IMG/VR virus record: IMGVR_UViG_3300029787_000396
Location: 1 to 21,256 of that record
Length of the DNA: 21,256 nt
Direction: 5' to 3' (one strand)
Origin: a virus
Every line of letters begins with the position of its first letter. Position 1 is the first letter of the stretch. The translations under genes and the position numbers were made by a program. The notes under the pieces were generated by a model. That model was not told the origin of the DNA, did not search any database, and worked only from the letters and a program-made list of their open reading frames with translations. Below, one piece after another: positions 7,020 to 21,256 of the stretch.

Positions 7020-10000
7020 TCAACTAGACCTATACATTCAAAGCTTACAAGAACAAAGAGCTAAAGAAGAAGAACAAGAAGAACAAGAATTTTTTTATGA
7101 TACTTCTACGTCTGAAACTCCTGAAGGCTATGACACCTTTGTAACTGAACCTACAACAGAACGTGAAGTAAACCCTTACGATTCTACTCCGGGTAAAACT
7201 ACACTTACTGAACTTAGGAATGACCCTGAGTTTGCTCAAAGAGCTTCAAGGTTTTTAGATGGTGTTGGTAGTAATGATAATATCTTTGAATATCTTAGAG
7301 ACTCTGACTATAGTTTAAGTGCTGCTGCTGTTCGTTCTTTTCAAACAGGTAATTGGACAGAAGAACAAAAACAAGACTATGCATATTTAAGAGAAAGATT
7401 TAATAATGCAGATATAGGTAATTGGAAAGAAAGATTTGGAATGATAAAAGATATTGGAGTCGATATAGTTACTGACCCTTTTAATATTCTTGCTGCTATT
7501 TTTGCTATACCTAGTGGTGGTACATCTTTAGGGACTAGAGCTGTTTTAGGAACTACTGCACAACAAGCAATGAAACAATATACAAAAGCTGAATTAAAAA
7601 AGAAAGCTATAAAAGATACTGCATTGTTTACTGCTGCTGAAGGTGCTGCATGGGGTGGACTTCATAATTATTTTTTACAAGATATTGATATGGATTTAGG
7701 TTTACAAGATGATATTGATTTCACAAATATAGGAGTTACTACTTTATTAGGTGGAGCAATTGGTGGAGCTTTGGGTGGTGGTATTACTGCTGCTACGTAT
7801 GGTAGAGCTGCTAGAGAAGCTACAGAAGAAACAGCTAAGAAAATAGATACAGATATAGATAAAGTTCCTGTTACAGATATGCCAGAATATACTCAACAAC
7901 TAGAATTTAAGTTTAGCAACGAAGAAGTTATAGAAAATACTGCTCGTATGAAAACAAGACAAGAAGTTTTAGAAGACTCTGAAATTGATGAAGTTGTAGC
8001 AGAACCTTTAGAAAAATTAAAAGCAGAAGGTAAAAAAGCACAAAGTAAAGGTACAAAAATATTACACACTTTTTTAGCTAATACTATTGGTAAACCTACT
8101 ACAGCTTTTTTAAGTTACGCAGAAAATTCACCACAACTTCAAGCTTTACTTGAAAAGTTTAGATATGATTATGATGTCACAATGACTGGTCAAGGCAAAG
8201 AAGGAGTAAAGAAAAAGTCTTATGGTCTTGCTGTAGGTGAAAGAACAGGTAAATATTTATATGGTTTAGCTAAGTCATTTAATGTTTTAGATAGAGTAGG
8301 TTTTAGAGCTAGATTAGCTAAAGACCAACAAGAAGAATTAAATTCTTTATTAAGAGATAAAAGAGTAACCGGAACTAAACGAGAAGCTCAAAGAGCAGGT
8401 AATAAAGTTTGGATAAGAGATTTAATAGGTAAAGAACATAATGGATTTATAGTAACAGAAGATGTTGCAGTTTCTTACGGTGGTAAAAACTTTGATGGTA
8501 CTGAAGGTGTTAGAAATTTATTAGATAACAGTTTTAATGATATAAATCAAGCAGGATTATTTAGAAAAGGAACTCTTAATAAAGGTGGATTTTTACCTAG
8601 ATTATTTAACTATAAAGCTTTAAAAGAAAACAGAGAAAGATTTCAAAGAGATTTAATAGAATCAGGACATGCTGACCCTTTAAATGAAATAGATGAAGTA
8701 ATTATTAAAAATGCAGAAAATGAAAAAGTAAAAGGTGTATTATTAGATGCAGCAGGTAAAGACGAAGATATATTTGGTGTAGACTTTTTAGACTTAGCAA
8801 ATGGAAACATGCAAAGAGCTAAAGAATTAAAAGCTGAACGTATTGTAGATGATATGTTAATGCAAAGATGGACTCCTTTTGAAGTTAAAATGATGTCTAA
8901 AGATAAAGTTGTTGGAGATTCTGCAGGATATTTACAAGCTAGAAGATTTACAAATTTAGATGATAATAAAATAGCATATGTATTAGAAAGTGATACACAA
9001 CAAATATTAGAAGATTACTTTACTAATGCTGCAAGAGCTATTGAAAGGTCTAATTATTTTGGTAGAAACCTAGTTGAGTTTGAAAAAAAGTTTTTACTTA
9101 AAGAAGGTGGAATTAGAGATGAATTATTAAAAAGTGGTTTAGATGAAAATGAAGTAATTAAAGTACTCGATGGTATTAGAGATATGCACAAACGTGTAAC
9201 TGGTATTGAAACTGATTCAAATTCTATATGGAAAAAAAATAAATGGATGAGAGGTGCTGCTGATTGGGGTAAACTAACACAACAGATGGCTCATTTACCT
9301 TTTGCTACTTTGTCTAGTATTACTGAACCTTTTTTACTTTTAACAAGAGCTGGTAAAGGAGATACTCTTAATGTTGCTAGAGATATTTTAAGTTCTGTAA
9401 TAGTTAAAGAAGGTAAAAGTGTTATAGATAGAACTATAAAAGGTTTTCAACGTGGAGTCTTACGTAAAAGAGTTAAAGGTATTAAAGATATAGATGATGA
9501 AGCTTGGGGTGAATTATATCAAACTGGACTAGCTTTAGAACAAGCAGTACAAGAAAGAATTGAAGGATTAGCCGGTGAAGGTTTACATGGTACTTTAGCT
9601 AAAAATATACAACAAGGATTTTTTAAAGTTAACTTATTAACTCAATGGACAAGAGCTGTTCAACTTGCATCATTTACTACTGGTAAAAGATTAATAAAAC
9701 AAAATGCTGAAAAGCTTTCTAAAGGTGGATTAGGTGCAAGTAAAAAGAAATACTTAATTCAACAGTTAAATGATTTAGGTGTTGATGAAAAAGATGCAGT
9801 TAAATGGTATAAAAAATCTACAGTTAATGGTAAGTGGGATGATAACATAGCTCGTAGCCAAGAATTTTATCAAAAACAATATACTTCAGGAGCTAATAGA
9901 TTTGTAAAAGAAATTATTCTTAATCCTAGTACTGCAGAAGCTAATAGACCTTTATGGTTTTCAACACCTTCAGCTCAAATGTTAGTACAGTTTGCTGGAT

Positions 10001-10650
10001 ATCCTACAGTATTTAATAATACTGTACTTAAAAGATTTTCAAATGAAATGGTTAATAGTCCAGCACAAGCTATACCAAAAGTATTACCTACTGTTATATT
10101 AATGACTTCAGTAGCTCACATTGGTAATATTCTTAGAAGTCAAGGTCAAAATTTAAAAGACTATGAAACTGGTAGAGATAAAGATGCAGGTCAATTAATA
10201 TTTGAAGGTGTTAGAAGATGGGGAGGAATAGGTCCTTTTGATTATGCTGCTAGATATGATAGTGAATATGACAGAAATGTTGGAACTTTAACAGCTACAT
10301 TAAAAACTTTTGCAGGTCCATTACCACAAGATATTATTGATGGTGTTTTATATAGAAAAGGAATACCAGAAATACTTGTTACTAATGTTCCCGGATATGG
10401 TTTATTACCAACAGATACAAGAAAAGCTATGAGAGCTGCAGCAAGAGGTTCATCTAGTAAAGATAAAAAATACAAAGTAAGACAATATTCAAAAGGTGGT
10501 ATAGTTAAAAATGTACCTAATGTTAAAGACGAACCTGATGAAATGCAAAGCAGAGTAACAGGTATGCCTTTTAATAGTACTGCAGATTTTATACAAGATG
10601 AGGAAGATAGAGAGCTTAAATCACAAATGGAAGGATTAGGATTAAAATGA
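7012..10650 (+). CDS. Large internal virion protein (ejection/core protein)
   Basis: 1212 residues; start overlaps the upstream stop by 8 bases. An acidic Gln/Glu-rich N-terminus is followed by a hydrophobic stretch (about 157-185), a Gly-rich hydrophobic segment (about 238-262, LLGGAIGGALGGGITAA), a long charged helical middle, and another hydrophobic span near 1021-1040 (PTVILMTSVAHIGNIL). The C-terminus has YSKGGIVKNVPNV, RVTGMPFN and DEEDRELKSQ, a tail I associate with the large internal virion protein of marine T7-like podoviruses. Such proteins are ejected with the DNA and form a conduit across the envelope. No enzyme motif is visible, so the muralytic activity is probably supplied by the preceding gene product. 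It overlaps the lysozyme start by 4 bases (ATGA). The family assignment rests on size, context and C-terminal style. Confidence 0.8.
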   Translation: MSNQLDLYIQSLQEQRAKEEEQEEQEFFYDTSTSETPEGYDTFVTEPTTEREVNPYDSTPGKTTLTELRNDPEFAQRASRFLDGVGSNDNIFEYLRDSDYSLSAAAVRSFQTGNWTEEQKQDYAYLRERFNNADIGNWKERFGMIKDIGVDIVTDPFNILAAIFAIPSGGTSLGTRAVLGTTAQQAMKQYTKAELKKKAIKDTALFTAAEGAAWGGLHNYFLQDIDMDLGLQDDIDFTNIGVTTLLGGAIGGALGGGITAATYGRAAREATEETAKKIDTDIDKVPVTDMPEYTQQLEFKFSNEEVIENTARMKTRQEVLEDSEIDEVVAEPLEKLKAEGKKAQSKGTKILHTFLANTIGKPTTAFLSYAENSPQLQALLEKFRYDYDVTMTGQGKEGVKKKSYGLAVGERTGKYLYGLAKSFNVLDRVGFRARLAKDQQEELNSLLRDKRVTGTKREAQRAGNKVWIRDLIGKEHNGFIVTEDVAVSYGGKNFDGTEGVRNLLDNSFNDINQAGLFRKGTLNKGGFLPRLFNYKALKENRERFQRDLIESGHADPLNEIDEVIIKNAENEKVKGVLLDAAGKDEDIFGVDFLDLANGNMQRAKELKAERIVDDMLMQRWTPFEVKMMSKDKVVGDSAGYLQARRFTNLDDNKIAYVLESDTQQILEDYFTNAARAIERSNYFGRNLVEFEKKFLLKEGGIRDELLKSGLDENEVIKVLDGIRDMHKRVTGIETDSNSIWKKNKWMRGAADWGKLTQQMAHLPFATLSSITEPFLLLTRAGKGDTLNVARDILSSVIVKEGKSVIDRTIKGFQRGVLRKRVKGIKDIDDEAWGELYQTGLALEQAVQERIEGLAGEGLHGTLAKNIQQGFFKVNLLTQWTRAVQLASFTTGKRLIKQNAEKLSKGGLGASKKKYLIQQLNDLGVDEKDAVKWYKKSTVNGKWDDNIARSQEFYQKQYTSGANRFVKEIILNPSTAEANRPLWFSTPSAQMLVQFAGYPTVFNNTVLKRFSNEMVNSPAQAIPKVLPTVILMTSVAHIGNILRSQGQNLKDYETGRDKDAGQLIFEGVRRWGGIGPFDYAARYDSEYDRNVGTLTATLKTFAGPLPQDIIDGVLYRKGIPEILVTNVPGYGLLPTDTRKAMRAAARGSSSKDKKYKVRQYSKGGIVKNVPNVKDEPDEMQSRVTGMPFNSTADFIQDEEDRELKSQMEGLGLK

Positions 10651-11099
10651 ATATAGAACAATGTAAAGCTGAAATAAAAAGACACGAAGGCGAAGTGTTA
10701 GAAATTTATATGGATAGTCTAGGCTATAAAACTTTAGGAGTTGGACATCTTTGTCAACCTAACGACCCTGAATATGATTGGGAAGTTGGCACACCTGTCA
10801 GTCAAGAAGTAGTAGATATGTATTATCAAGATGATTTTCAAAAACATTATATGGAAGCTATATATGTTTTTGGAAGTGAAGAAGGTTTTTATAATCTTCC
10901 AGAAAAAATACAACATGTATTAGTTAATATGTGTTTTAACTTAGGAGGCTCTAGACTTTCAAAGTTTAAAAATATGTTATTAGCTTGTAGAAAATATGAC
11001 TGGAAAGAAATGGCAGAAGAAATGCAACAAAGTCGTTGGTATTGGCAAGTAGGTAGACGTAGTCAAGAATTACAACAATCAGTTTTATCGGTAGAATAA
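10647..11099 (+). CDS. T4-type lysozyme (endolysin, GH24)
   Basis: 150 residues. The enzyme hydrolyses the beta-1,4 bond between MurNAc and GlcNAc in peptidoglycan at the end of infection. The N-terminal sequence IKRHEGEVLEIYMDSLGYKT aligns with the T4 lysozyme active site: E14, D23 and T29 have exactly the spacing of T4 Glu11, Asp20 and Thr26, followed by LGVGH. Further family features are VNMCFNLGGSRLSKFKNML and the C-terminal SRWYWQVGRRSQEL (RxxEL-like ending). There is no signal peptide or membrane anchor, so release to the periplasm needs a holin; three small membrane proteins follow immediately. The start overlaps the upstream stop as ATGA and has AGGATTAGG upstream, implying coupled late expression. 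Confidence 0.93.
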   Translation: MNIEQCKAEIKRHEGEVLEIYMDSLGYKTLGVGHLCQPNDPEYDWEVGTPVSQEVVDMYYQDDFQKHYMEAIYVFGSEEGFYNLPEKIQHVLVNMCFNLGGSRLSKFKNMLLACRKYDWKEMAEEMQQSRWYWQVGRRSQELQQSVLSVE

Positions 11100-11100
11100 A

Positions 11101-11544
11101 ATGGGATTTCCTTTTGAAATAATAACTATGTTAGCATCTACTGTACTAGGTGGATTAATGAGTGTGTGGGCTGAAAGTCGTAAAGCTAAACAAGAATCAC
11201 AAAAACTTCTTATAACTCGTGGGGAGTTTAATTTAAAAGCAGCTAAACAAGCAAGAGACCACGGGCTAAAAGATAAAGGATTTGCATGGACTAGAAGAAT
11301 TATAGCATTAACATCTATATTTGCTATAGTTGTATTTCCAAAAATAGTAGCTGTTTATTATCCTGATGTAGCTGTTACAATAGGATATACAAATTGGAAT
11401 CCGGGATTTTTATTCTTTAGAGAAGGCAGAGAAGTATTTGAATGGATAACTTTTCAAGGCTTAGTAATTACACAACTTGATACTAATTTAGTATCAGCTA
11501 TAATTGGTATGTACTTCGGTGGAAGTTTAGCCAAAGGAAAATAA
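11101..11544 (+). CDS. Three-span membrane protein, holin-like candidate
   Basis: 147 residues, starting 1 base after the lysozyme stop. Hydrophobic spans at about residues 5-21 (IITMLASTVLGGLMSVW), 66-87 (RIIALTSIFAIVVFPKIVAVYY) and 118-143 (QGLVITQLDTNLVSAIIGMYFGG). A polar Lys/Gln-rich helix (AESRKAKQESQKLL) joins the first two. No signal peptidase site is visible. Small size, three spans and position directly after an endolysin lacking an export signal suggest a holin or holin-like lysis protein. I recognise it as a recurring membrane protein next to marine phage lysozymes but cannot give a family name with confidence. It could instead be a spanin partner or an envelope protein unrelated to lysis. 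Confidence 0.7.
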   Translation: MGFPFEIITMLASTVLGGLMSVWAESRKAKQESQKLLITRGEFNLKAAKQARDHGLKDKGFAWTRRIIALTSIFAIVVFPKIVAVYYPDVAVTIGYTNWNPGFLFFREGREVFEWITFQGLVITQLDTNLVSAIIGMYFGGSLAKGK

Positions 11545-11545
11545 A

Positions 11546-11932
11546 ATGCAAAATAACATGATGGGTGGCTTTAGTGGAGACATGGACAGGAATGAAGTTG
11601 AGATAGACCTTAATAAATTTATGTCGTTGCTTCAAGAGAAGTCAGAATTAAAAGATAGAATAAGAGAATTAGAAGATGAAAAGAATGATAATCCTTATCA
11701 ACGATGGATATTTGTTGCACAAGCAATAGATAGCTGGAGATTAATACCAAGAGCTTTTCTTAGTGTATATATGTATTTATTATACTATGTAGTTTTTTGG
11801 TATATGGATTTACCAGAACCTAGTATGGAACAATCAGGTTTAATATCTGTTGTTGTTGGAGCTGGAGCAGCTTGGTTCGGATTATATACTTCTACTTCAA
11901 AAGGTGGTAAGGACTTTAGTAAAACTAAATGA
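11546..11932 (+). CDS. Small membrane protein with N-terminal coiled coil, lysis-module candidate
   Basis: 128 residues, 1 base after the preceding stop. The N-terminal half is polar with a heptad-like charged helix (about 24-50: LNKFMSLLQEKSELKDRIRE). Two hydrophobic spans follow, about 72-93 (FLSVYMYLLYYVVFWYM) and 100-117 (SGLISVVVGAGAAWFGLY), then a Lys-rich tail. The layout W.LIPR.FLSVYMYLLYY...WFGLY recurs in small phage membrane proteins of holin type. Its stop overlaps the next start by 4 bases (ATGA). A role in lysis is inferred from neighbours; it may act with or against the other two membrane proteins (holin and antiholin pair). Confidence 0.7.
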   Translation: MQNNMMGGFSGDMDRNEVEIDLNKFMSLLQEKSELKDRIRELEDEKNDNPYQRWIFVAQAIDSWRLIPRAFLSVYMYLLYYVVFWYMDLPEPSMEQSGLISVVVGAGAAWFGLYTSTSKGGKDFSKTK

Positions 11933-12216
11933 ATGCTGACCAATGGATGAATTTATTAGAGACTGTAGGTATTCCTGCAGCCTTTGCAGTTGCTGCTGGT
12001 TGGATGGTGTGGAAACTATTTCAACATTTAATATCAGATGTTCATAAAAAATTAGATACGCAACATAGTATGATAGTTGCATTAATAGATAGAATAAGAC
12101 AAATAGATAATGATATAATAAGAATAGATACTATGTGCAGAACAGCTATGGGTATTCCTGTAGATGTTGATAGATTAGCGAGAGCAGATGGAAAAAAAGA
12201 CCAAAGAAAAGATTGA
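11929..12216 (+). CDS. Single-span small membrane protein, holin- or spanin-like candidate
   Basis: 95 residues; ATGA overlap with the previous gene. One N-terminal hydrophobic span (about 12-31: VGIPAAFAVAAGWMVWKLFQ) is followed by an amphipathic helix with regularly spaced Ile/Leu (HKKLDTQHSMIVALIDRIRQ, continuing IDNDIIRID) and a Lys/Arg/Asp-rich tail. The form resembles BhlA/UviB-like holin proteins or an inner-membrane spanin with an N-terminal anchor and coiled coil. No Rz1-like lipoprotein is nested in it that I can see. It closes the lysis block before the curli-type genes. Confidence 0.65.
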   Translation: MNADQWMNLLETVGIPAAFAVAAGWMVWKLFQHLISDVHKKLDTQHSMIVALIDRIRQIDNDIIRIDTMCRTAMGIPVDVDRLARADGKKDQRKD

Positions 12217-12772
12217 TATGATAGAAGATATACACCCTATGAAACAAATAACAATAGCATCTATAGTACAAGTATTTGTATTAGGACTCATGGCTATATC
12301 TATGTTTGGAATTAACAATTTGTTTGCAGATGAAAGACAATTAGATTTAACTTTACCAGAAACAAATTTTAACTATGTACAAATAAAAAAAGACTCTTTA
12401 TTAATACAAGACTCAATAAACAAACGTCTTAGATTTATAAAAATAAAAAATGAACCAAGTAAAAAAACACTAACAACTTACTATATTCTTAATACTATTG
12501 ATATGACAACTTCATATTACATGACTAGAAATCATCCACACATAAACGAAGGTAATTTTTTGTTACCAGAAAAACCTAGTGCTGCAGAATTTTTATTACA
12601 TAAATCTATTATGTCTCCACTTATTGCAGCTAATTTTCAAGAAGAAGAAATTGTATTAGCTAATTGGATTTTAGCAGTTGTAATATTAAAAAATTTATAT
12701 ATATATAATACAACATGTAGAAACATGCCTAACTATCATCATGTAACAGGACAAAACTTAAACCCGTGTTAA
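12188..12772 (+). CDS. Membrane or exported protein, weakly DUF5658-like, unknown function
   Basis: 194 residues from the ATG at 12188 (29-base overlap with the previous gene). In-frame ATGs at 12218 and 12239 are also plausible; the last makes a neat signal-peptide-like N-terminus (KQITIASIVQVFVLGLMAIS ending NNLFA-DER). A polar region follows (about 50-95). Then come spans or buried helices at about 96-112 (TTYYILNTIDMTTSYYM), 133-150 and 154-173 (IVLANWILAVVILKNLYIY). The pattern of an Asp in a hydrophobic helix followed by a conserved-looking EGN motif (EGNFLLPEKP) is reminiscent of DUF5658 membrane proteins, but the match is weak. It lies 3 bases before csgF, so it may be part of the curli-type module. 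CsgE cannot be recognised in it. Confidence 0.65.
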   Translation: MEKKTKEKIDMIEDIHPMKQITIASIVQVFVLGLMAISMFGINNLFADERQLDLTLPETNFNYVQIKKDSLLIQDSINKRLRFIKIKNEPSKKTLTTYYILNTIDMTTSYYMTRNHPHINEGNFLLPEKPSAAEFLLHKSIMSPLIAANFQEEEIVLANWILAVVILKNLYIYNTTCRNMPNYHHVTGQNLNPC

Positions 12773-12775
12773 AAT

Positions 12776-13270
12776 ATGAAATTAATGCCAACATTTAAAA
12801 GCAAAAAGACTACAAGAAATTGTAAGTTTTGTATATTCTTTTGGTCTATCTTAGTTATGTTTTGGTCTGTTAATAGTATGTCAGATGAGATGGTACATCA
12901 ATTTAAGAATCCTAGCTTTAGTGGTATAGGTACATCTGCACATTATCTTACTATAGAGAATCAAGAGTTTAATAGAAAGATGAGTATCAAAGAAGAACTT
13001 AAAGCTTTACAAGACCAAATTAAAAGAGACAAAGAAAATACAACACTTGCTAGGTTTATAAGAAACTTAGAGTCAAGAATATACGCACAACTATCAAGAC
13101 AACTAGTAGAAAACTTGTTTGGAGAAACTCCTAGTGATAGTGGTATACTAAACTTAGAGGGCAACACAATCGAATATAGTGTTGTTGATGGAATAATAAC
13201 ATTAAAAATTACGGACTCAGATGGGAATACGACAGTTATCAGTTTGCCTATTGGCAGTTTTACTTTCTAG
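12776..13270 (+). CDS. csgF: CsgF-like curli assembly protein
   Basis: 164 residues. CsgF is the small exported protein that binds the CsgG pore at the outer membrane and couples substrate secretion to fibre nucleation. An N-terminal hydrophobic signal-type segment (about 17-34: KFCIFFWSILVMFWSVNS) precedes the hallmark start of mature CsgF: VHQFKNPSFSG at 40-50, matching the E. coli F-R-N-P-x-F-G-G motif that sits inside the CsgG channel. Then comes YLTIENQEFN, a charged helix (about 70-100), SRIYAQLSRQL (cf. Q-S-Q-I-L-G) and a C-terminal beta segment NTIEYSVVDGIITLKITDSD with GNTTVISL, equivalent to CsgF's DYIVDI...QLNVTD...TSTIQV. The helix is longer than in E. coli CsgF (138 residues). 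Its last 50 bases encode, in the +1 frame, the CsgG signal peptide. Confidence 0.9.
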   Translation: MKLMPTFKSKKTTRNCKFCIFFWSILVMFWSVNSMSDEMVHQFKNPSFSGIGTSAHYLTIENQEFNRKMSIKEELKALQDQIKRDKENTTLARFIRNLESRIYAQLSRQLVENLFGETPSDSGILNLEGNTIEYSVVDGIITLKITDSDGNTTVISLPIGSFTF

Positions 13271-14075
13271 TTGTGCAGTATTAAATTACAATAACGATTT
13301 AGCTTTAACAAGAGATATACAACCTGCTAGTATTTTAGATTTACAATCAGTTGAATTAGCTGAAGTACCTGCTGCAAAACAAAAACCAATTATAGCAGTA
13401 TACAGGGATAGCTTTCAAGATTTAACAGGGCAAAGAAAAAGTAATAGTAGCTTTGCTTTGTTTAGTACAGCAGTTACACAAGCTCCAGAAGCATTACTTA
13501 TAAGAGCTTTAAAACATGCTGCTAATGGAAAATTTTTTAGAGTTGTTGAAAGGGTAGGATTAGACAATCTTACAAAAGAACGACAGCTTATCAGGTCAAC
13601 CAGAGAAAACTTTGAACAAGACCAAAAGCTTCAACCTTTATTATTTGCTGGTCTCATAATACAAGGTGGAGTAATTAGTTATGACACAAATGTAGAATCT
13701 GGTGGTATTGGTGCTAGGTACTTAGGAATAGGTAATAGTAAACAATACCGAGAAGATATAGTAACTATCTCATTAAGATTAGTTTCTGTATCGACAGGTG
13801 AAATATTAGTAGAGACTACAGTTTCTAAAAATATTTTATCAACAAGTGTGTCTCAGGATATTTTTAAATTTTATGAACAAGGAACAGAACTTGTAGAAAT
13901 AGAAGGAGGAATAGCTGAGAACGAGGTAGGTTCTATAGCTTTGCAAAAGGCAATAGAAGCTGGAGTATTTAACTTAATAGAAATAGGAATAGAGAGAGGG
14001 TATTGGGAATATGAAACAATTAAAATTGATGAGCCTAGTTGTGATGTTGACTGCGTTGACAGCATACGGGGCTGA
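13221..14075 (+). CDS. csgG: CsgG-like outer-membrane curli secretion channel lipoprotein
   Basis: 284 residues, close to the E. coli length (277). CsgG forms a nonameric outer-membrane channel that exports curlin subunits. A lipoprotein signal peptide with lipobox LSSC (Cys18) starts the protein. Family blocks are IIAVYRDSFQDLTGQ (57-71), FSTAVTQAPEALLIRAL (81-97), FRVVERVGLDNLTKERQLIR (106-125), a strongly matching VISYDTNVESGGIGARYLGI (151-170), VSVSTGEILVETTVSKNIL (188-206), ALQKAIEAGV and IGIERGYWE. In the constriction loop the Phe56 equivalent appears kept (F81), but the region around Tyr51 reads SNSSFAL and is one residue longer. The C-terminus has an unusual CDVDC. The start ATG lies 50 bases inside csgF, and no later start would keep the lipobox. 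The first 65 coding bases of the next gene lie within its 3' end. Confidence 0.95.
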   Translation: MGIRQLSVCLLAVLLSSCAVLNYNNDLALTRDIQPASILDLQSVELAEVPAAKQKPIIAVYRDSFQDLTGQRKSNSSFALFSTAVTQAPEALLIRALKHAANGKFFRVVERVGLDNLTKERQLIRSTRENFEQDQKLQPLLFAGLIIQGGVISYDTNVESGGIGARYLGIGNSKQYREDIVTISLRLVSVSTGEILVETTVSKNILSTSVSQDIFKFYEQGTELVEIEGGIAENEVGSIALQKAIEAGVFNLIEIGIERGYWEYETIKIDEPSCDVDCVDSIRG

Positions 14076-14727
14076 TAATGAAATATATATTGACCAATCA
14101 GGTGCTACTGCTAATATAGATTTAGAACAACTTGGTTCTGGAAATATAATAGGTGGTTTAAATTCTGTTGCAGGTACTTTAACTGCACTAGACTTAGATG
14201 GGTTAAATCTTACATTAGATGTAAATCAAATTGGTGATACTAATAAATTTCTTGGTGATATATTAGGAGATAGTATTACAGGTTTTTTTGAGTTTGATGG
14301 AGATTCTAATGCATTTACCATTCAAGTAGACCCTACAAATACTTATGGTGCTGACAATTCAAACTTTAATGTTGACGTTACTGGAGATAGTAATACTTTT
14401 ACATTAGACGTTGCTACTACTTCAATGGCTAGTAACACAGATTTGGATTGGATTATTAACGGAAGTAGCAACACATTAGATTTTGATATAAATTATGATG
14501 GTGGTACTTCTTATGTTGATGTTGATGGAGATAGTAATAATATTACTTTTACAGGTAGTGGTTATGCTGGTGGTTATTTTTATTTAGACCAGACAGGTAA
14601 CTCTAGAACTTTTAACATACAACAACTTAGTACATTAGATAATGATTGGCTCAAAATACTTTCAACTGGTAATTCTGGTACTGTGTGTGTTATCCAAAAC
14701 GATGGTGGCACAGCAGTCGGATGCTAG
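14011..14727 (+). CDS. Secreted curlin-repeat-like protein, candidate CsgG substrate
   Basis: 238 residues. A clear Sec signal peptide (MKQLKLMSLVVMLTALTAYG, cleavage near 20/21) argues for the ATG at 14011 despite a 65-base overlap with csgG. The mature part is acidic and Gly/Asn/Asp/Ser-rich, with about eight irregular repeats around G-x-S/T-N: YIDQSGATANIDLEQLGSGN (first pair, with the curlin pattern Q-x-G-x-x-N), VNQIGDTNKF, FDGDSNAFTIQV, VTGDSNTFTLDV, INGSSNTLDFDI, VDGDSNNITF, LDQTGNSRTFNIQQL and STGNSGTVCVIQNDG. Alternating strands and Asn/Gly turns predict a beta-solenoid like CsgA/CsgB, but Gln is often replaced by Asp and two Cys occur near the C-terminus. Position right after csgG supports a substrate role. 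It may be an amyloid-forming fibre subunit or a non-fibrous adhesin. Confidence 0.8.
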   Translation: MKQLKLMSLVVMLTALTAYGADNEIYIDQSGATANIDLEQLGSGNIIGGLNSVAGTLTALDLDGLNLTLDVNQIGDTNKFLGDILGDSITGFFEFDGDSNAFTIQVDPTNTYGADNSNFNVDVTGDSNTFTLDVATTSMASNTDLDWIINGSSNTLDFDINYDGGTSYVDVDGDSNNITFTGSGYAGGYFYLDQTGNSRTFNIQQLSTLDNDWLKILSTGNSGTVCVIQNDGGTAVGC

Positions 14728-15748
14728 TATAGGAAGCGTAACAGAATTAAAAGGTACAGGCAGAATTGTAAGGGGCATTCCTTATGATGCTGCCTTGTCT
14801 TTTGATATAGAAAGTTATGACAATGTAGAAACTTCTAACGGAAGAATAGGCATAACATTTTTAAATGATAGTCAAGTAAGACTAACAGAACATTCACAAT
14901 TAATTATAGATGAATTTATCTATGACCCTGACCCATCTAAATCTAAGATGGCTCTACAATTTGCTAGTGGAACTGCAAGGTTTATTACTGGTAAGTTAAA
15001 TAATATAAACAAAGAAAACATAGCTATCTCAACTCCAAGTGCTAATGTTTCAATTAGAGGAACTGACTTCACAATTACAGTAAATGAATTGGGAGAAAGT
15101 TTAATTATATTATTACCAAAAGATGATGGTACTCCTAGTGGAGAAATATTAGTAGCAACAGGTGCAGGAGAAGTAATTCTTAACAAGCCATATCAAGCTA
15201 CTACAGTTTCTATGTTTGAACTTGAACCTACTAAACCAGTTATATTAGATTTAACTTTAGAGTTAATTGATAATATGTTAATAGTAAATCCTCCACAGGA
15301 AAAAACAAATGTACAAGGAGAAGATGGAGTTAGCGTTTCTAATATTCTTGATGCTGACTTCCTTGACTTTGATGATTTAGATGTAGACTATCTTGCAGAA
15401 GATGACTTAGAGTTTACTGAATTAGATATTAATTATTTAGATGTAAACTTTCTTGAAGACTTATTAGATATAATACAAGATGTAAATGAGTTAGACCAGA
15501 CTGAAACAATTTTAAAAACTAGTTTAGATTTAAAAGGAACAAGTATAGGTTTTGATTCTAATACACAAGTTAATACTTTTGTCACAGATAATATTATAAC
15601 ATTCTTAAAATCATTAGAAGATACAGTAAGATTAGATTTAGATAAGACAGGTTCTTATACTGTTATCCTTGTGCAAAATGGAAAGAGTACACAAATTGTA
15701 GTTAATGGTGGTGGTTCTTCTACAATTACTATAAAACAAGGCGATTAA
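14642..15748 (+). CDS. Secreted FecR-domain protein with acidic repeat tail
   Basis: 368 residues. A signal peptide (MIGSKYFQLVILVLCVLSKT, cleavage after MVA near residue 23) supports the start at 14642. The in-frame ATG at 14702 would leave only two residues before the cleavage site. Residues ~28-150 match the FecR periplasmic domain: a leading beta strand region, SNGRIGITFLNDSQVRLTEH, then LQFASGTARFITGK, then IAISTPSANVSIRGTDFTI. FecR domains sense or bind in the periplasm; in bacteria stand-alone exported versions often neighbour CHASE2 adenylate cyclases, and one converges on this gene here. The second half has an Asp/Leu-rich repeat (236-276) and a C-terminal beta-rich part. It overlaps the curlin-like gene by 86 bases in the +1 frame. 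It could be a sensor partner of the cyclase or an envelope/surface protein. Confidence 0.87.
   Translation: MIGSKYFQLVILVLCVLSKTMVAQQSDASIGSVTELKGTGRIVRGIPYDAALSFDIESYDNVETSNGRIGITFLNDSQVRLTEHSQLIIDEFIYDPDPSKSKMALQFASGTARFITGKLNNINKENIAISTPSANVSIRGTDFTITVNELGESLIILLPKDDGTPSGEILVATGAGEVILNKPYQATTVSMFELEPTKPVILDLTLELIDNMLIVNPPQEKTNVQGEDGVSVSNILDADFLDFDDLDVDYLAEDDLEFTELDINYLDVNFLEDLLDIIQDVNELDQTETILKTSLDLKGTSIGFDSNTQVNTFVTDNIITFLKSLEDTVRLDLDKTGSYTVILVQNGKSTQIVVNGGGSSTITIKQGD
15347..15469 (+). repeat. Acidic Asp/Leu pentapeptide-like repeat in FecR protein
   Basis: Residues 236-276 are short units of form (L/V)-D-x-(D/N)-(F/Y)-L or D-D-L-x-x: LDADFL, LDFDDL, DVDYL, EDDLEF, LDINYL, DVNFLEDLLD. 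Hydrophobic residues recur about every five residues with Asp/Asn between. This suggests a small repeat solenoid or an acidic metal-binding linker. The function is unknown. Confidence 0.6.
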
Positions 15749-15862: not shown

Positions 15863-17659
15863 TTACTTATTTGAAGGGAAATACACAGTAATTTTTTCTG
15901 ACTTACCTTTTACAGAGATATTATCTACTAATTCATAGTTAAATACATCCCCTGCTAAGTCTTTAGTGTACTCTGATATAATAATCTTCCATTGTTTATA
16001 CTCATTTCTACCAGCAGTAGCTTCTAATCTAGCTGATAAGTTTACAGCATCTCCAACAACAGAGTAATCAAACCTTGTTTCGCTTCCCATGTTACCAACA
16101 ATACAAGTTCCAGAGTTGACACCAGTTCCTACATTGATAGGTGGTAAGTCTAAACCCTGTTCTTTAAATTGTTTATTAAGTTCTAGTGTTGCTTCTTCTA
16201 TTTCTATTGCAGACTTTATAGCTAGTTCTGCATGATTCTCACAGGCAAGAGGAGCATTCCAAAATGCCATTATACAATCGCCCATATACTTGTCAATAGT
16301 TCCATTATTAGCTAATATAATTTTTGTCATCTTATCAAGATAAGTATTTATTAATTCTACCAAGCCTTCAGGGTCATCATTGTTTTTAAATACTTCTGAT
16401 ACAGGAGTAAAGCCCATGATGTCAGTAAATAAGAATGTCATTTCTTTTCTTTCTCCACCTAACTTTAAAAGCTCTGGATTTTTTTGTAGCATAGCTACCA
16501 TATCAGGAGAAAGATAAGTACCAAACTGTTTCTTTATTTGTTGTCTTAATTTAAATTGTGTTCTAAAGTTTATATAGAATTGTTGTAGAGCAATAAGTGT
16601 CATACATGTCATACTCCATGTGACATCTATAAGATACCCAATAGATATAAAGTAATAACCAAGAGAACCTACTGAAGCTATTGAAGTTCCTGCTAATACC
16701 ATACCCCATGTAATACCAAAATAACTTATTACAAAAGCTATTAGTAATCCTGATATAACTAATATCAATAGTTCAACAAACAATCTATAGTCAGGGATGA
16801 ACGGAGAGTCAATCAAAATACTTTCTGCAAGGGCAGCCTGTATCTTGTGTGGTTCTAATAGCCCGTTTGGTGTGGCTAGAGTAGGCATTACCCCTGCTGC
16901 AGTAACACCTACGAATACAAACTTGTTTGCAACATTCATTTCAGATAGTGTAGTTTGTTTTGTATCAACCCAGCTAATCCACTTACGACCAAGGCTATCT
17001 GTTGATATAGGGTCAAGCCCACGAACTCTTATTTGCTCTATACCATTCTTGTTTGTTTTTATTTGATATGTATTAGCATCAACTAAAGTTTTTAATACTT
17101 CAATACCAAAAGAACCTACCCACCCATTAGGAGTTTGTTGTAATAAAGGTATTCTTCTTACAAGATTATCAACATCTACTGGAGCAGACACAGCACCTTG
17201 GGCTGATACCTCTTGAAGTTCTGATATGTTTTGTAAAAATCCTGTAGCTTTTGGTAAGTCTATATCTGGTCCGAGAATAACAGTACCATGTGTTTTAGGA
17301 TAAATATTATTATTATACTCTGGCATAGCTAATACACTAGGAGCATAGCTTAACATCTGTGCAAATATTTTATCTCCCTCAAACCTGTCTGGTTGTGGAA
17401 AAAGAATAACCCACCCAACTCCCAATGCACCTTCGTTAAGTAGCTGTCTATGTATTTCTGCTAAATCTTGTCTAGGAAAAGGATAGCCACCTCGTTCTTG
17501 TACGTCTTCTTCTGTGATATTTAAGATTACAAAATTACCAGATGGCTCTGGTGTTTCTACAAAAGCATCAAAGGTTTTTAACCTCATAACTTCTAAAGGT
17601 GTAACATTAAATATTAAAGGTAATGTTAATAATCCTAATAATAAACTAGCCCACTTCAT
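15863..17659 (-). CDS. CHASE2-domain class III adenylate cyclase
   Basis: 598 residues. It makes cAMP from ATP, with its sensor facing the periplasm. Order: N-terminal membrane span (3-20); CHASE2 sensor (~22-290; VILNITEEDVQERGGYPFPR, GALGVGWVILFPQPDRFEGD, then a late VANKFVFVGVTAAG); three membrane spans (~293-312, 316-338, 343-362); a linker (QFGTYLSPDMVAML) and the cyclase domain (~402-598). Catalytic set complete: metal Asp D413 (LFTDIMGFT) and D461 (YMGDCIMAF), adenine-specifying K457 and D531, transition-state N540 and R544 (DYSVVGDAVNLSARLE). The Lys/Asp pair indicates ATP, not GTP. The start overlaps the upstream stop by 1 base (TAATG), placing it in the ribonucleotide reductase operon. 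The convergent neighbour is a FecR protein, a common bacterial partner. A full-length membrane cyclase in a phage is unusual. Confidence 0.93.
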   Translation of the reverse strand: MKWASLLLGLLTLPLIFNVTPLEVMRLKTFDAFVETPEPSGNFVILNITEEDVQERGGYPFPRQDLAEIHRQLLNEGALGVGWVILFPQPDRFEGDKIFAQMLSYAPSVLAMPEYNNNIYPKTHGTVILGPDIDLPKATGFLQNISELQEVSAQGAVSAPVDVDNLVRRIPLLQQTPNGWVGSFGIEVLKTLVDANTYQIKTNKNGIEQIRVRGLDPISTDSLGRKWISWVDTKQTTLSEMNVANKFVFVGVTAAGVMPTLATPNGLLEPHKIQAALAESILIDSPFIPDYRLFVELLILVISGLLIAFVISYFGITWGMVLAGTSIASVGSLGYYFISIGYLIDVTWSMTCMTLIALQQFYINFRTQFKLRQQIKKQFGTYLSPDMVAMLQKNPELLKLGGERKEMTFLFTDIMGFTPVSEVFKNNDDPEGLVELINTYLDKMTKIILANNGTIDKYMGDCIMAFWNAPLACENHAELAIKSAIEIEEATLELNKQFKEQGLDLPPINVGTGVNSGTCIVGNMGSETRFDYSVVGDAVNLSARLEATAGRNEYKQWKIIISEYTKDLAGDVFNYELVDNISVKGKSEKITVYFPSNK

Positions 17660-17883
17660 TAATTTGTCATTACTCTTGCATTTAAATTAGCTTCTATATG
17701 ATTATGTATTTCATCTAATTTAACTGTTCCTTCTCTTATAATAGTTTTTAAAATAGCATATTCTTTTTTACTAAAGAATGGTTTTAATTTAGTAATGTCA
17801 GTAGATATTCTTTCTGTTACTAATTTACCAGACCTATCATAAAGAAGTTTATAACCTATTAAAACAGATTCTTCTCTTTTCAT
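17659..17883 (-). CDS. 74-residue protein of unknown function between nrdB and cyclase
   Basis: Both ends are fused to neighbours by 1-base TAATG overlaps: its ATG uses the last A of the nrdB stop, and its own stop supplies the A of the cyclase ATG. The sequence is charged and predicted helical in the second half (SKKEYAILKTIIREGTVKLD then EIHNHIEANL), which loosely looks like a winged-helix or HTH arrangement. The first half (GYKLLYDRSGKLVTERIST) looks like a beta hairpin. There is no signal peptide or membrane span. I do not recognise it. It may be a small regulator or simply a phage hypothetical; its coupling to both neighbours makes it a real gene. Confidence 0.7.
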   Translation of the reverse strand: MKREESVLIGYKLLYDRSGKLVTERISTDITKLKPFFSKKEYAILKTIIREGTVKLDEIHNHIEANLNARVMTN

Positions 17884-18854
17884 TATTCAAATCCTGTAAA
17901 TGTTATATTGTCTTGTCTTCCTCTTAATCCTGCTTTCATGTATGTAGTTGCCCTACCTTCAAAAAAGTTCTGATGTTCAACACCCATGACTTCATCTATC
18001 CAACCAAGAGGATTTTCTCTTTGGTCATAGTTAGTTTTAAGACCAAGCTGTAATAATCTTCTGTCAGCTATGTATCTGTTGTAAGCATACATATCTTTCT
18101 TAGTTAATCCTTGTAAGTCTCCCATCTCAAACACAAGGTCTAAAAATTTATCTTCAAGAGTAACCATTTGTCTGCAAATTTCATAGAGTTCTTTCTTAAA
18201 ATCATCTGTCCATATCTCTATGTTTTCTTTGATAAACTCTCTAAACAATTTAGTCATAGCTTCAACATGCATAGACTCATCACGAATAGAATAAGTAACT
18301 ATCTGTCCCATACCTTTCATTCTACCGAACCTTGGAAAGTTTAACAGGATTGCAAAGCTACTAAAGAGTTGTAGTCCTTCTGTAAAAGCTGAATAGACTG
18401 CTAATGTTTTAGCTATAGTTTCTTTCTTAGCTTTACTAGGTTTAAAGTTTCCGACATAGTCATGCTTGTCTGCCATCTCTTCATAGTCAGCAAATGCTTT
18501 ATACTCTATCTCTGGCATACCTACTGTATCAAGCAATAAGCTGTAGGCATGTTGATGTATTGATTCCATGTTAGCAAAAGATGACATCATCATCCTTGCT
18601 TCTGGCTTTTTAAATATAGGCATATACTTATCTATATATCCTGATGCTACATCCACATCTGATTGAGTAAACAATCTAAATATTTGTGTAAGTAAATTCT
18701 TTTCTTTATCTGAAAGTTCTTGCCAGTCTTTTACATCTGTATGTAATGGTACGGATTCTGGCATCCAATGCATTTGATTCTGTAATACATAGTAATCAAA
18801 CATCCATGGATATTCAAAAGGTTTATAATAATCTCTAGTGCCTAATAAGCTCAT
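17883..18854 (-). CDS. nrdB: Class I ribonucleotide reductase beta subunit
   Basis: 323 residues. It forms the diiron (or dimetal) tyrosyl-radical cofactor used by NrdA to reduce ribonucleotides for phage DNA synthesis. All ligand positions are present with E. coli spacing: D66 (cf. Asp84), E97 and H100 in NMESIHQHAY (Glu115, His118), E159 in FTEGLQLFSSF (Glu204), and E193 and H196 in RDESMH (Glu238, His241). The radical tyrosine Y104 corresponds to Tyr122. The start has AAGGA about 6-7 bases upstream in the 9-base gap after nrdA. The C-terminus ends ITFTGFE, a short acidic/aromatic tail of the kind that docks NrdB to NrdA. It is somewhat shorter than E. coli NrdB (376) because N- and C-terminal extensions are reduced. 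Confidence 0.96.
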   Translation of the reverse strand: MSLLGTRDYYKPFEYPWMFDYYVLQNQMHWMPESVPLHTDVKDWQELSDKEKNLLTQIFRLFTQSDVDVASGYIDKYMPIFKKPEARMMMSSFANMESIHQHAYSLLLDTVGMPEIEYKAFADYEEMADKHDYVGNFKPSKAKKETIAKTLAVYSAFTEGLQLFSSFAILLNFPRFGRMKGMGQIVTYSIRDESMHVEAMTKLFREFIKENIEIWTDDFKKELYEICRQMVTLEDKFLDLVFEMGDLQGLTKKDMYAYNRYIADRRLLQLGLKTNYDQRENPLGWIDEVMGVEHQNFFEGRATTYMKAGLRGRQDNITFTGFE

Positions 18855-18863
18855 AATTTTTCC

Positions 18864-20759
18864 TTAACCTTCACAGGCTATACATTCCACATCATCTAAC
18901 TTGATTCTTGGAACTTTTATATTTACATTTTCTACATTTCTAGCTGCGTTAGACCTAAAATAGTAGAGTGATTTAAGTTTATTCATACCATACCAATGAA
19001 CATCATTAACATACTGCATGTATTCATCATGCTTGTCTTGGTCTTCTGTTGCTTTTGGTAAGGTAAAGAATAAGTTTACAGATTGTGCTTGGCATATAAA
19101 CTGTTGTCTTTGATATGCGTGTTCTACAATCCATATTTGATTTATTTCATTTGCTGTTTTAAATATTTCTTTTTCATCATCGTTAAGAATATCTAAGTGT
19201 TGTACTGACCCGTCTGAACCAGCTATATCTTTCCAAATGTTTTCTAGTTTTTTACCTTTTAATCCTTTCGATTTAAAAATCTTTTCGAGAAATTTGTTTT
19301 TAACTTGATAGCTCCCTGATAAAGTTTTATGAGTATAGCAGTTAGCTCTATAAGGCTCAATACTAGGAGAAGTCCCACTACATATAATCCCACTACTAGC
19401 ATTAGGAGCAATAGCCATGAGGTTAGCATTTCTATTACCTGAACCATTGATGTCAGGAGCTTCCCCCCTTTTAATAGCCAACTCTTTAGTAGCTGAATTT
19501 GCTTTTGATTTAATATATGTGAAAGCTTTGTGGTTAAATCCAGTTGCGAAAATACCTTCAAAAGGTATGTTCCTAGATTGTAGATATGCATGAAACCCCA
19601 TTGCACCCAGCCCAAGACTTCTTTCTCTATATGCCGAATAGGCAGATTTAGTATAACCTTCTTTGTCTTTTCTAACATAGTTTTGGAATCTTTTAAAATT
19701 TGCACTATAACCTCCCAGTTGTGATGTGTCTACTGCATTTTCTATGTAATGTTCTATTACATTATCCAGCATTGTTATTAAATCTAATATAAAATTATCG
19801 TCTTTTGACCAGTCATCAAAGTGTTCTAAATTTACAGAAGACAAACAACATACTGCTGTTCGTTCTTCATTAGTTGGTAAAGTTATTTCAGAACATAAAT
19901 TACTTTGTCTAATTTGTAACCCTAAATCTTTTTGTTGTTTTGGTAAAGCATCATTACAAGTATCTATGTTTATCATATATGGTTCGCCTGTCTCTGCTCT
20001 TGCATGTATAATCTGCCACCATAAATCTCTAGCATTTATAATCTTAACAGCTTCTTGAGTTTTAGGGTCAATCAATCTCCAGTCTTCGTCATCTTTTACT
20101 GCATCTAAAAATGCATTAGTTATATTAATACCATTGTGTAAGTTAAGACATTTACGATTAATATCTCCACCAGATTCTTTACGCATGTTTATAAACTCTT
20201 CTATTTCTGGATGACTTATATCCATGTATGCTGCATAAGAACCTCTTCTAGTTGTGCCTTGATTAAAGGCTAACATCTGAGAATCTACAACATGCATGAA
20301 TGGAATTGAACCAGTAGAACGACTGCCATGAGTAGTAGAAATACCGTTGCTCCTAATATCGCCCCAATATCCACCGATGCCTCCACCTGAACTTGCCAAC
20401 CAAATGTTTTCATCGTAGTGATTAGATAAACCACTGCGACTGTCAGGAACATAATTAAGGAAACAAGAGATAGGTAACCCACGACTGGTTCCCCCGTTAC
20501 TAAGTATAGGAGTGCTGAACATGAACCAACGAGAGGAACTGTAGTTGTAAAGTCTTTGAGCCAATTCAAAATCTGTCTCACCTTTGAAGGTTGCTCCGAA
20601 GACGGAGGCTCTTGCGAATGCTTCTTGTGCATGTGTTTCTCCTTCCCAAAAATATCTATCTTTGAGTGTATCTAGACTAAACTTATCAAACTCTTTTTCT
20701 TTATCGTAGTCTATTTCAATTCCTAAGTAAGGCTTAGTTCCTATTTTATCTTCAATCAT
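18864..20759 (-). CDS. nrdA: Class I ribonucleotide reductase alpha subunit without ATP cone
   Basis: 631 residues from the ATG at 20759. A TTG six bases upstream (20765) is possible but too close to the AGGA at 20768-20771, which sits 8 bases from the ATG. Active-site residues: C99 (GLPISCFLNY), the N-L-C-x-E motif SNLCSEITLP (N287, C289, E291) and C304 in TAVCCLSSVNL, equivalent to E. coli Cys225, Asn437, Cys439, Glu441 and Cys462. The C-terminus CIACEG supplies the redox-active cysteine pair that re-reduces the active site. Compared with E. coli NrdA (761), the N-terminal ATP cone is missing, so overall dATP feedback inhibition is probably absent. It overlaps the upstream gene by 8 bases (ATGATTGA) and precedes nrdB by 9 bases. 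Confidence 0.95.
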   Translation of the reverse strand: MIEDKIGTKPYLGIEIDYDKEKEFDKFSLDTLKDRYFWEGETHAQEAFARASVFGATFKGETDFELAQRLYNYSSSRWFMFSTPILSNGGTSRGLPISCFLNYVPDSRSGLSNHYDENIWLASSGGGIGGYWGDIRSNGISTTHGSRSTGSIPFMHVVDSQMLAFNQGTTRRGSYAAYMDISHPEIEEFINMRKESGGDINRKCLNLHNGINITNAFLDAVKDDEDWRLIDPKTQEAVKIINARDLWWQIIHARAETGEPYMINIDTCNDALPKQQKDLGLQIRQSNLCSEITLPTNEERTAVCCLSSVNLEHFDDWSKDDNFILDLITMLDNVIEHYIENAVDTSQLGGYSANFKRFQNYVRKDKEGYTKSAYSAYRERSLGLGAMGFHAYLQSRNIPFEGIFATGFNHKAFTYIKSKANSATKELAIKRGEAPDINGSGNRNANLMAIAPNASSGIICSGTSPSIEPYRANCYTHKTLSGSYQVKNKFLEKIFKSKGLKGKKLENIWKDIAGSDGSVQHLDILNDDEKEIFKTANEINQIWIVEHAYQRQQFICQAQSVNLFFTLPKATEDQDKHDEYMQYVNDVHWYGMNKLKSLYYFRSNAARNVENVNIKVPRIKLDDVECIACEG

Positions 20760-21021
20760 CTTCAATGTCCTGTAAATGTATAGCTATTATAGCATAATGT
20801 ATTATTTTTAACAAGTCCATTTCTATATCTGTTCCATCTTTTTTACCACACCTCATAGCATATTTCATAATGTTACCCATACAAAAACCTTCTCCATGTC
20901 CTGCATCTATTATCATATCAGTAGCTTGATACTTTCCTTGTGCATAATGTCTTTTATATGTACCATCAACATATCTTTGGATTTGTTTTATTGTTTCACC
21001 CTCATTAAATTTATATTTCAT
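20752..21021 (-). CDS. DUF3310-like phage protein (putative nucleotide-metabolism accessory)
   Basis: 89 residues from the ATG at 21021; an earlier in-frame ATG at 21027 lies 1 base from the GGAGG and is less likely. The DUF3310 pattern is recognisable: HYAQGKYQATDMIID, then FCMGNIMKYAMRCGKKDGTD and EMDLLKIIHYAI (Gly-Asn-x-x-Lys-Tyr, Arg..Lys, Asp-Leu-x-Lys, Tyr). DUF3310 proteins are common in T7-like and marine phages and are often annotated as nucleotide-kinase-like, though the activity is not established. Position directly before ribonucleotide reductase fits nucleotide metabolism. The ATG overlaps the endonuclease stop by 4 bases (ATGA) and its end overlaps nrdA by 8. Confidence 0.85.
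   Translation of the reverse strand: MKYKFNEGETIKQIQRYVDGTYKRHYAQGKYQATDMIIDAGHGEGFCMGNIMKYAMRCGKKDGTDIEMDLLKIIHYAIIAIHLQDIEDD
20768..20771 (-). promoter_or_regulatory. Ribosome binding site AGGA of nrdA
   Basis: AGGA on the minus strand, 8 bases before the ATG at 20759 and only 2 bases before the alternative TTG at 20765, which favours the ATG start. Confidence 0.55.
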
Positions 21022-21256
21022 TTCCATTCCTCCGGTAATGTTTCTTCACTATACCATGTGAAGTTATTTGTTTCTGCCCATTCTGCATGAGTTCTTTTAG
21101 TTCCGTCTTTTCTTTTCTTAGCTTGTGGCATAGGAGCATAAGGTTTTTGAAATAAAAATACTAATTCAAATTCTCCTACTTGGTCCTTCAAAGATTCTCT
21201 TATCCAAATATATTTACTATATTCAGCGTAATCCCAAAATCTACCTTTAGCTTCTA
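21018..21256 (-). CDS. T7-type endonuclease I (Holliday junction resolvase), N-terminus outside window
   Basis: The minus-strand frame is open from the right edge (first full codon at 21254) to TGA at 21020-21018, giving the last 78 residues. The sequence EAKGRFWDYAEYSKYIWIRE, then FELVFLFQKP, GTKRTHAEWAETNNFTW and LPEEW parallels the C-terminal half of T7 gp3 (VETKGLWESDDRKKHLLIRE, IRIVFSS, SYGEFCEKHGIKF, IPAEWI). EAKG supplies the catalytic Glu and Lys of the nuclease (T7 Glu65, Lys67); the matching Asp should lie just outside the window. The enzyme resolves branched DNA and, in T7, helps degrade host DNA. The stop overlaps the next start (ATGA), so it is the first visible gene of the leftward operon. 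Confidence 0.88.
   Translation of the reverse strand, partial: EAKGRFWDYAEYSKYIWIRESLKDQVGEFELVFLFQKPYAPMPQAKKRKDGTKRTHAEWAETNNFTWYSEETLPEEWK
21029..21033 (-). promoter_or_regulatory. Strong ribosome binding site GGAGG deciding the DUF3310 start
   Basis: GGAGG on the minus strand lies 7 bases before the ATG at 21021 but only 1 base before the ATG at 21027, so the later ATG, which also makes a standard ATGA overlap with the upstream stop, is the better start. Confidence 0.65.

Follow-up and report, generated by a model that had tools for sequence, protein, structure and literature searches.

A type VIII (curli) secretion module with fecR and CHASE2 cyclase genes in an apparent HTVC103P-type phage

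Genes for CsgF, CsgG, CsgA/B, FecR and an adenylate cyclase have been described as a conserved phage module, present in podophages of the HTVC023P type and in pelagimyophages (Wittmers 2022, PMC9599517). In that T8SS module, small gene(s), csgF, csgG, curlin, fecR and adenylate cyclase follow one another in this order, CsgE is missing and a second curlin is often present. GenBank names csgF, csgG and curlin-associated genes in HTVC008M and in the OM43 phage Melnitz, and the HTVC008M record calls the third gene 'curlin-associated protein, CsgB'. According to the paper on Melnitz, the phage has neither csgA nor csgB, and the pore-only model of that paper starts from this statement (PMC9004378). 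Contrary to the paper, the GenBank record of Melnitz (L085) annotates two curlin-associated repeat proteins, at 6728-7447 and 8506-9522.

In this study, we describe such a module in an IMG/VR virus record of 21,256 bases (GC 32.0%), the whole of which is referred to below as the window. A sequence-only reading of this DNA had recognised a channel, a coupling factor and a curlin-like substrate, which we confirm, but it missed fecR and the cyclase; the linked substrate, which in its view made the case more informative, does not make it new, since both the module of Wittmers 2022 (PMC9599517) and the HTVC008M annotation precede it. The kind of module is already published and is not new; what is new here is a third phage lineage with the module, a motif in the FecR tail, the single viral origin of csgG, the close linkage of the genes in distant viral loci and selection on the curlin gene. 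In the papers searched we found no earlier report of the module in HTVC103P-type phages, and the GOV2.0 survey in PMC9599517 may include such contigs with their lineage unnamed. The module's genes are intact, tightly linked and under purifying selection, and the viral csgG genes, as judged from a CsgG tree, have a single origin. We moderately favour the interpretation that they form a complete phage type VIII (curli) secretion system on one transferable module, by which a surface fibre would be exported, anchored and monitored late in infection.

Source phage and layout of the module

By sequence comparison the window is a contig of the HTVC103P/HTVC115P type and therefore phage DNA; its host, like those of other HTVC103P-type phages, whose genomes have a GC content of 30.8-34.0%, is probably SAR11 (PMC8528129). 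Identity to HTVC115P is 71% for nrdB, 59% for nrdA and about 40% for the structural genes, which lie in syntenic order, and a holin-like gene of 147 amino acids has 58% identity to a gene of HTVC103P and is native to this phage type. The window is a fragment without PolA, so PolA, which is present in eight csgG-bearing relatives, was compared in a close relative instead. The PolA from the contig of L018, which is among the closest relatives, is 52-53% identical to those of HTVC115P and HTVC103P; its identity to HTVC027P, an HTVC023P-type reference, is 23% over 369 residues, a part of the protein, and, on this relative's PolA, the similarity of at least 45% to HTVC023P/HTVC027P that defines the HTVC023P type is not reached. 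The PolA of this relative, and the RNR and gene order, are shared with HTVC103P and HTVC115P. The PolA, nrd and structural matches therefore place the phage in a lineage other than those with the published module. In cultured HTVC115P and HTVC103P, the interval from the structural genes to the replication/nrd side has no annotated csg genes and contains Hsp20 and small genes. At the left end of the window (60-300), a partial protein contains a very Asp/Glu-rich low-complexity stretch (DDDDDDDDDD...EEEE).

The module comprises g95, g194, csgF, csgG, the curlin-like gene and fecR, all on the plus strand, followed by a CHASE2 adenylate cyclase gene on the minus strand. With its flanks it is laid out as follows.

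10647..11932, plus: endolysin and two small membrane (holin-like) genes, upstream of the module (PF00959, 34.3 bits; 58% identity to HTVC103P gene)
11929..12216, plus: g95, membrane/coiled-coil protein of 95 amino acids, first gene of the module (phrog_18771; homologues upstream of csgF)
12188..12772, plus: g194, membrane protein (two-part matches to ORFs of relatives)
12776..13270, plus: CsgF homologue, secreted coupling factor (PF10614, 65.2 bits)
13221..14075, plus: CsgG homologue, outer-membrane secretion channel lipoprotein with lipobox LLSSC (PF03783, 170.3 bits)
14011..14727, plus: curlin-like repeat protein with signal peptide, candidate fibre subunit (kernel, turns, predicted fold, linkage, dN/dS)
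14642..15748, plus: secreted FecR-domain protein with a C-terminal beta domain ending in TITIKQGD (PF04773, 39.6 bits)
15863..17659, minus: CHASE2 sensor with class III adenylate cyclase (PF05226, 98 bits; PF00211, 70.9 bits)
17659..21027, minus: small gene, nrdB, nrdA and nucleotide-kinase-like gene, convergent with the module (HTVC115P identities; phrog_480)

The genes on the nrd side mark the HTVC115P-type lineage. The three ORFs proposed earlier (12776-13270, 13221-14075 and 14011-14727) were recovered exactly, on the late-gene strand of the phage, and the module reaches past the curlin gene, with fecR extending to 15748 and the cyclase to 17659. The overlaps that had been noticed are also real in the ORF coordinates (50 nt for csgF/csgG, 65 nt for csgG/curlin and 86 nt for curlin/fecR); however, csgF does not directly follow the lysis genes, as had been claimed, because g95 and g194 intervene and csgF starts 3 nt past g194. 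The long out-of-frame coding overlaps at 13221-13270, 14011-14075 and 14642-14727 are unusual and are found in relatives too. Promoter and terminator scans gave matches no commoner than chance, and an Rfam search gave no match.

Homologues of g95, which matches no Pfam or NCBIfam family, lie just upstream of csgF in HTVC008M, in Melnitz and in most of 99 distant viral loci; there is one copy in the window and there are usually two in myophage modules. Judged by its position, g95 is probably the gene published as a 'histidine kinase'. That label looks wrong for the module gene before csgF: at 95 amino acids g95 is too short to be a histidine kinase, no HisKA or HATPase domain was found in it, and its HTVC008M homologues likewise gave no kinase match. 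In the second gene, g194, a small pre-csgF ORF seems to have been fused with a protein that relatives place between fecR and the cyclase, since its residues 6-44 match a pre-csgF ORF and its residues 49-172 a post-fecR ORF (L006, L021, L044 and L054). The regions concerned in two of these relatives are 10512-10919 in L044 and 10512-10913 in L006, and one of these relatives has a DUF5658 match of 18.8 bits, under the cut-off of 25.2.

Conservation, origin and the secretion genes

The expectation that related phages would keep these genes was borne out: among 32 nrdB relatives with at least 6.5 kb of sequence beyond nrdB, 26 carry the intact module at the same site and 6 lack all of it, a pattern of whole-block gain or loss with no decay. 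The order csgF-csgG-curlin-fecR is held wherever the contig reaches among the 80 closest csgG relatives. A few ORFs are split in relatives, as is fecR in L002, possibly through sequencing error. The distant set, 99 viral loci that are mostly pelagimyophage-like, was counted only where the contig has room; there, a curlin-like gene follows csgG in 76 of 77 loci, fecR is present in 49 of 49 and the cyclase follows fecR in 31 of 32. In a CsgG tree, all viral sequences fall on one side of a 100/100 branch from the sampled bacterial CsgG proteins, and the HTVC103P-type sequences form one clade.

The csg genes are bacterial in origin, which would fit an adjoining bacterial operon or a chimeric assembly. 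We reject such contamination, and its likelihood is negligible, because the identical junction occurs in 26 other contigs and the GC content of the module equals that of the phage genes (32%); moreover, the alphaproteobacterial csg loci sampled have a GC content of 0.53-0.68, and no homologue of g95, fecR or the cyclase lies within about 10 kb of five sampled csgFG loci. The sequence-only reading was therefore right to regard the module as phage DNA.

The full-length homologues L094 to L097, from genome collections, were rejected as bacterial donors, since the csgG of L096 is identical to that of an IMG/VR contig and L198, which is the L094 contig, carries virion genes; all four are probably phage contigs binned into MAGs. 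L094/L198 and L193 lie in one Maricaulis MAG, and L096 and L194 to L197 in one Rhodobacteraceae MAG; L095 and L097 are also found in MAG bins, and one MAG contains four different csgF-bearing contigs. OR851715.1 (L084, 'Salmonella phage') is an unverified fragment of 1.5 kb with an enterobacterial csgG beside the end of csgF, and is probably host DNA within a phage assembly.

The identities proposed for the coupling factor and the channel were upheld in HMM searches, with 65.2 bits against a cut-off of 25.8 for CsgF (PF10614) and 170.3 bits against 20.8 for CsgG (PF03783). CsgG matches the solved E. coli CsgG at 8.5e-44; HfaB was rejected as an identity for the channel protein, which scores 165.9 bits with the CsgG model and 26.6 with that of HfaB. 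On direct comparison, the N-terminal CsgF motif QFKNPSFSG corresponds to E. coli QFRNPNFGG, and the pattern F-x-[NS]P-x-F-S-G is found in 102 of 127 viral CsgF proteins; in E. coli this motif belongs to the part of CsgF that inserts into the barrel of CsgG in the CsgG-CsgF structures. CsgE (PF10627) was not found in 15 phage records in a search that detected the E. coli positive control; the phage secretion may therefore be inefficient or ungated. CsgE is not universal, and Alphaproteobacteria also lack it (PMC9599517).

The third protein met the earlier claim in part: it misses the Curlin_rpt cut-off (PF07012, 10.6 bits against 20.7) and matches the CsgA and CsgB models weakly, far under their cut-offs, whereas its motif, predicted fold and selection support a curlin-like protein. 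For this reason we call it curlin-like only, a divergent protein without curlin status at the Pfam level; a distant homologue scores 17.1 with PF07012. The curlin kernel is present as NEIYIDQSG, with a QX10Q spacing, and GDSN-type turns recur at regular intervals seven times, a number reached by none of 5000 shuffles; all 151 ORFs of the curlin-like family have the kernel N-x5-Q-x-G. Most repeats of the window protein have lost the glutamines (degenerate class). An AlphaFold2 model of this protein is all-beta (pLDDT 78, pTM 0.75); its C-terminal half (residue 116 on) has two strands for every 23-26 residues, a period in line with the 23 +/- 5 residues published for curlin repeats (PMC10192328). 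Foldseek gave no significant match for this model in the PDB.

Values of dN/dS against up to ten relatives, with overlapping codons included, were 0.08-0.21 for csgF, 0.17-0.26 for csgG, 0.08-0.17 for the curlin gene, 0.14-0.20 for fecR and 0.14-0.35 for the cyclase, compared with 0.10-0.21 for two lysis-region genes. The curlin gene is thus under purifying selection as strong as that on the lysis genes, which argues against the role proposed for Melnitz, in which CsgG (with CsgF) would be a repurposed lysis or pinholin-like pore and the downstream genes passengers. Such a role is supported by the endolysin and holin-like genes that precede the module, by the missing CsgE gate and by the lack of clumping in Melnitz-infected cultures (PMC9004378). 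It leaves unexplained why csgG is so regularly followed by a curlin-like gene and accompanied by fecR in the distant loci, and why CsgF has kept its CsgG-binding motif; in addition, myophage modules do not adjoin lysis genes, and the module, being entirely missing from 6 of the 32 close relatives, must be dispensable for lysis. We consider a pore-only role unlikely, and the ungated pore that the sequence-only reading had offered as one possible use is disfavoured as the sole use by the constraint on the curlin gene.

The location of the module also bears on whether the curlin-like fibre might coat or tether progeny virions at lysis instead of acting on the living cell. In the lineage of the window, the late-strand site next to structural and lysis genes speaks for such a product; however, a product released by lysis needs no outer-membrane export machine, and the myophage module genes lie near replication genes, the csg clusters of HTVC008M and Melnitz, unlike that of the window, being placed between replication and structural genes. 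A virion or burst product is very improbable.

The FecR protein and the CHASE2 adenylate cyclase

The FecR protein consists of a signal peptide, a FecR periplasmic signalling domain, a disordered acidic linker and a C-terminal beta domain; the mean pLDDT of its model is only 61, and a helix at residues 3-24 lies at the N-terminal signal peptide. Foldseek matches its FecR domain to PupR and other anti-sigma periplasmic domains (E 1e-4 to 3e-4). A profile search finds the FecR domain only, with no cytoplasmic anti-sigma part as in the iron-citrate regulator, and no sigma factor gene was recognised among the ORFs of the window. With the anti-sigma part missing, 'iron-dependent regulator' is therefore a poor name, and the published label 'iron regulator' looks wrong here. 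These data also bear on the proposal that an ungated CsgG admits larger nutrients (cobalamin, siderophores), with FecR as the iron sensor (PMC9599517, PMC7029224). The missing CsgE and the resemblance to FecR/PupR-type periplasmic signalling domains agree with it, but neither a FecI-type sigma factor nor a TonB receptor gene was seen within the window, the protein has a signal peptide where the cytoplasmic anti-sigma part would be, and the conservation of curlin and CsgF is left unexplained. An uptake channel is accordingly quite improbable.

A motif, [IVLT]x[IVLT]xQ, lies at most 5 residues from the C-terminus in 98 of 101 unique viral FecR sequences, which are related to one another; it occurs in 5.8% of shuffled tails, in 2.7% of other ORFs on the same contigs and in none of 23 bacterial FecR-domain ORFs. 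E. coli CsgB shares it (AIRVTQR) and CsgA does not, and the last CsgB repeat has been implicated in CsgF binding. An hhalign comparison of the FecR tail with a curlin alignment was not significant (E 0.024, probability 2%), and the link between the two is therefore drawn solely from the terminal motif. We treat what looks like a resemblance to the fibre-nucleating end of CsgB as a lead. The match between FecR and the cell-surface anchoring domain of MpAFP (5ix9; E 0.042 and 0.19 with Foldseek and HMMER) is only suggestive.

The cyclase contains the catalytic motifs FLFTDIMGFT, KYMGD and DYSVVGDAVNLSARLE; the metal Asp pair, the adenine-specific Lys/Asp and the transition-state Asn/Arg of a class III enzyme are present (FLFTDIMGFT, KYMGD, VGDAVNLSAR), and K-x-x-GD is kept in all 66 viral homologues. 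In most relatives the gene is on the plus strand alongside the curli genes; in the window it is on the minus strand alongside the nrd genes, and it has been inverted within the subclade of the window. The inverted gene lies directly behind the nrd operon, so that it may be expressed early or in the middle of infection instead of late.

In the mechanism that we favour, CsgG would form an outer-membrane pore late in infection and CsgF would cap it; the curlin-like protein would be exported by Sec, pass through the CsgG-CsgF pore and assemble into a fibre on the infected cell's surface. With its curlin-type tail, the secreted FecR protein would act as nucleator or anchor, the role of CsgB in E. 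coli, and its FecR domain would signal the state of the fibre or of secretion to the CHASE2 cyclase, which would respond with cAMP. Several results count against this mechanism: Melnitz cultures did not clump although that phage has csgF, csgG and two curlin-associated genes (PMC9004378), CsgE is missing, the curlin-like protein falls under the Pfam cut-off and has no significant PDB match, and the FecR tail does not match the curlin alignment significantly. The likely gain would be a changed contact of the infected cell with its surroundings, such that competing phages are blocked or new hosts are held near the burst. We put forward tentatively a more specific proposal, about which we are rather doubtful: the FecR protein would be a curli component of a new kind, secreted and serving as both anchor and sensor. 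Its CsgB-like tail would bind the fibre or CsgF, its FecR domain would control the CHASE2 adenylate cyclase, and hosts that lack curli would thus be given a surface fibre that has a cAMP feedback of its own.

Spread of the module among unrelated phage lineages of the most abundant ocean bacteria (SAR11) implies a strong benefit, and what the module does matters for competition among phages in dilute sea water and for the contacts of infected plankton cells with neighbouring cells.

Comparison with known systems

The module of the window shares its gene order and the lack of CsgE with the module of Wittmers 2022. It has no second curlin, and it differs from that module in its HTVC103P/HTVC115P-type phage, in the inverted cyclase on the opposite strand and in the g194 fusion. 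Identities of the window proteins to those of HTVC008M and Melnitz are 46 and 40% for CsgG, 46 and 44% for CsgF, 30 and 22% for curlin, 39 and 33% for FecR, and 40 and 31% for the cyclase; unlike the window, these two clusters have two g95 copies, a second curlin-like gene and the cyclase on the same strand.

Bacterial curli systems (E. coli csgBAC/csgDEFG; Alphaproteobacteria) likewise have a CsgG channel, the N-terminal motif of CsgF and a secreted curlin-type protein. In the window, no CsgE was found and no CsgC or CsgD was seen, the curlin repeats are degenerate, and FecR and the CHASE2 cyclase are added.

To judge from alphaproteobacterial gene neighbourhoods and from an operon in Burkholderia, the FecR-CHASE2 combination seems to be a sensing pair that already existed in bacteria and became joined to curli genes in phages. 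FecR-domain proteins occur in 138 of 372 alphaproteobacterial genomes; among the cellular FecR matches listed, coverage is of the FecR domain, ending at about profile position 230 or earlier, and in 6 of 20 alphaproteobacterial loci examined a CHASE2 or cyclase gene lies within a few kilobases of the FecR-domain gene. The Burkholderia BiofilmReg operon, the disruption of which abolishes biofilm, encodes a secreted FecR-LysM protein and a CHASE2 histidine kinase (PMC5192318). Like the window, it places a secreted FecR-domain protein next to a CHASE2 sensor; unlike the window, it has a histidine kinase output with a response regulator, LysM in place of the curlin-type tail and no csg linkage. 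The FecR/PupR anti-sigma regulators share the fold of the periplasmic signalling domain with the window FecR, from which they differ in having a cytoplasmic anti-sigma domain, a transmembrane linkage and a nearby sigma factor or receptor gene.
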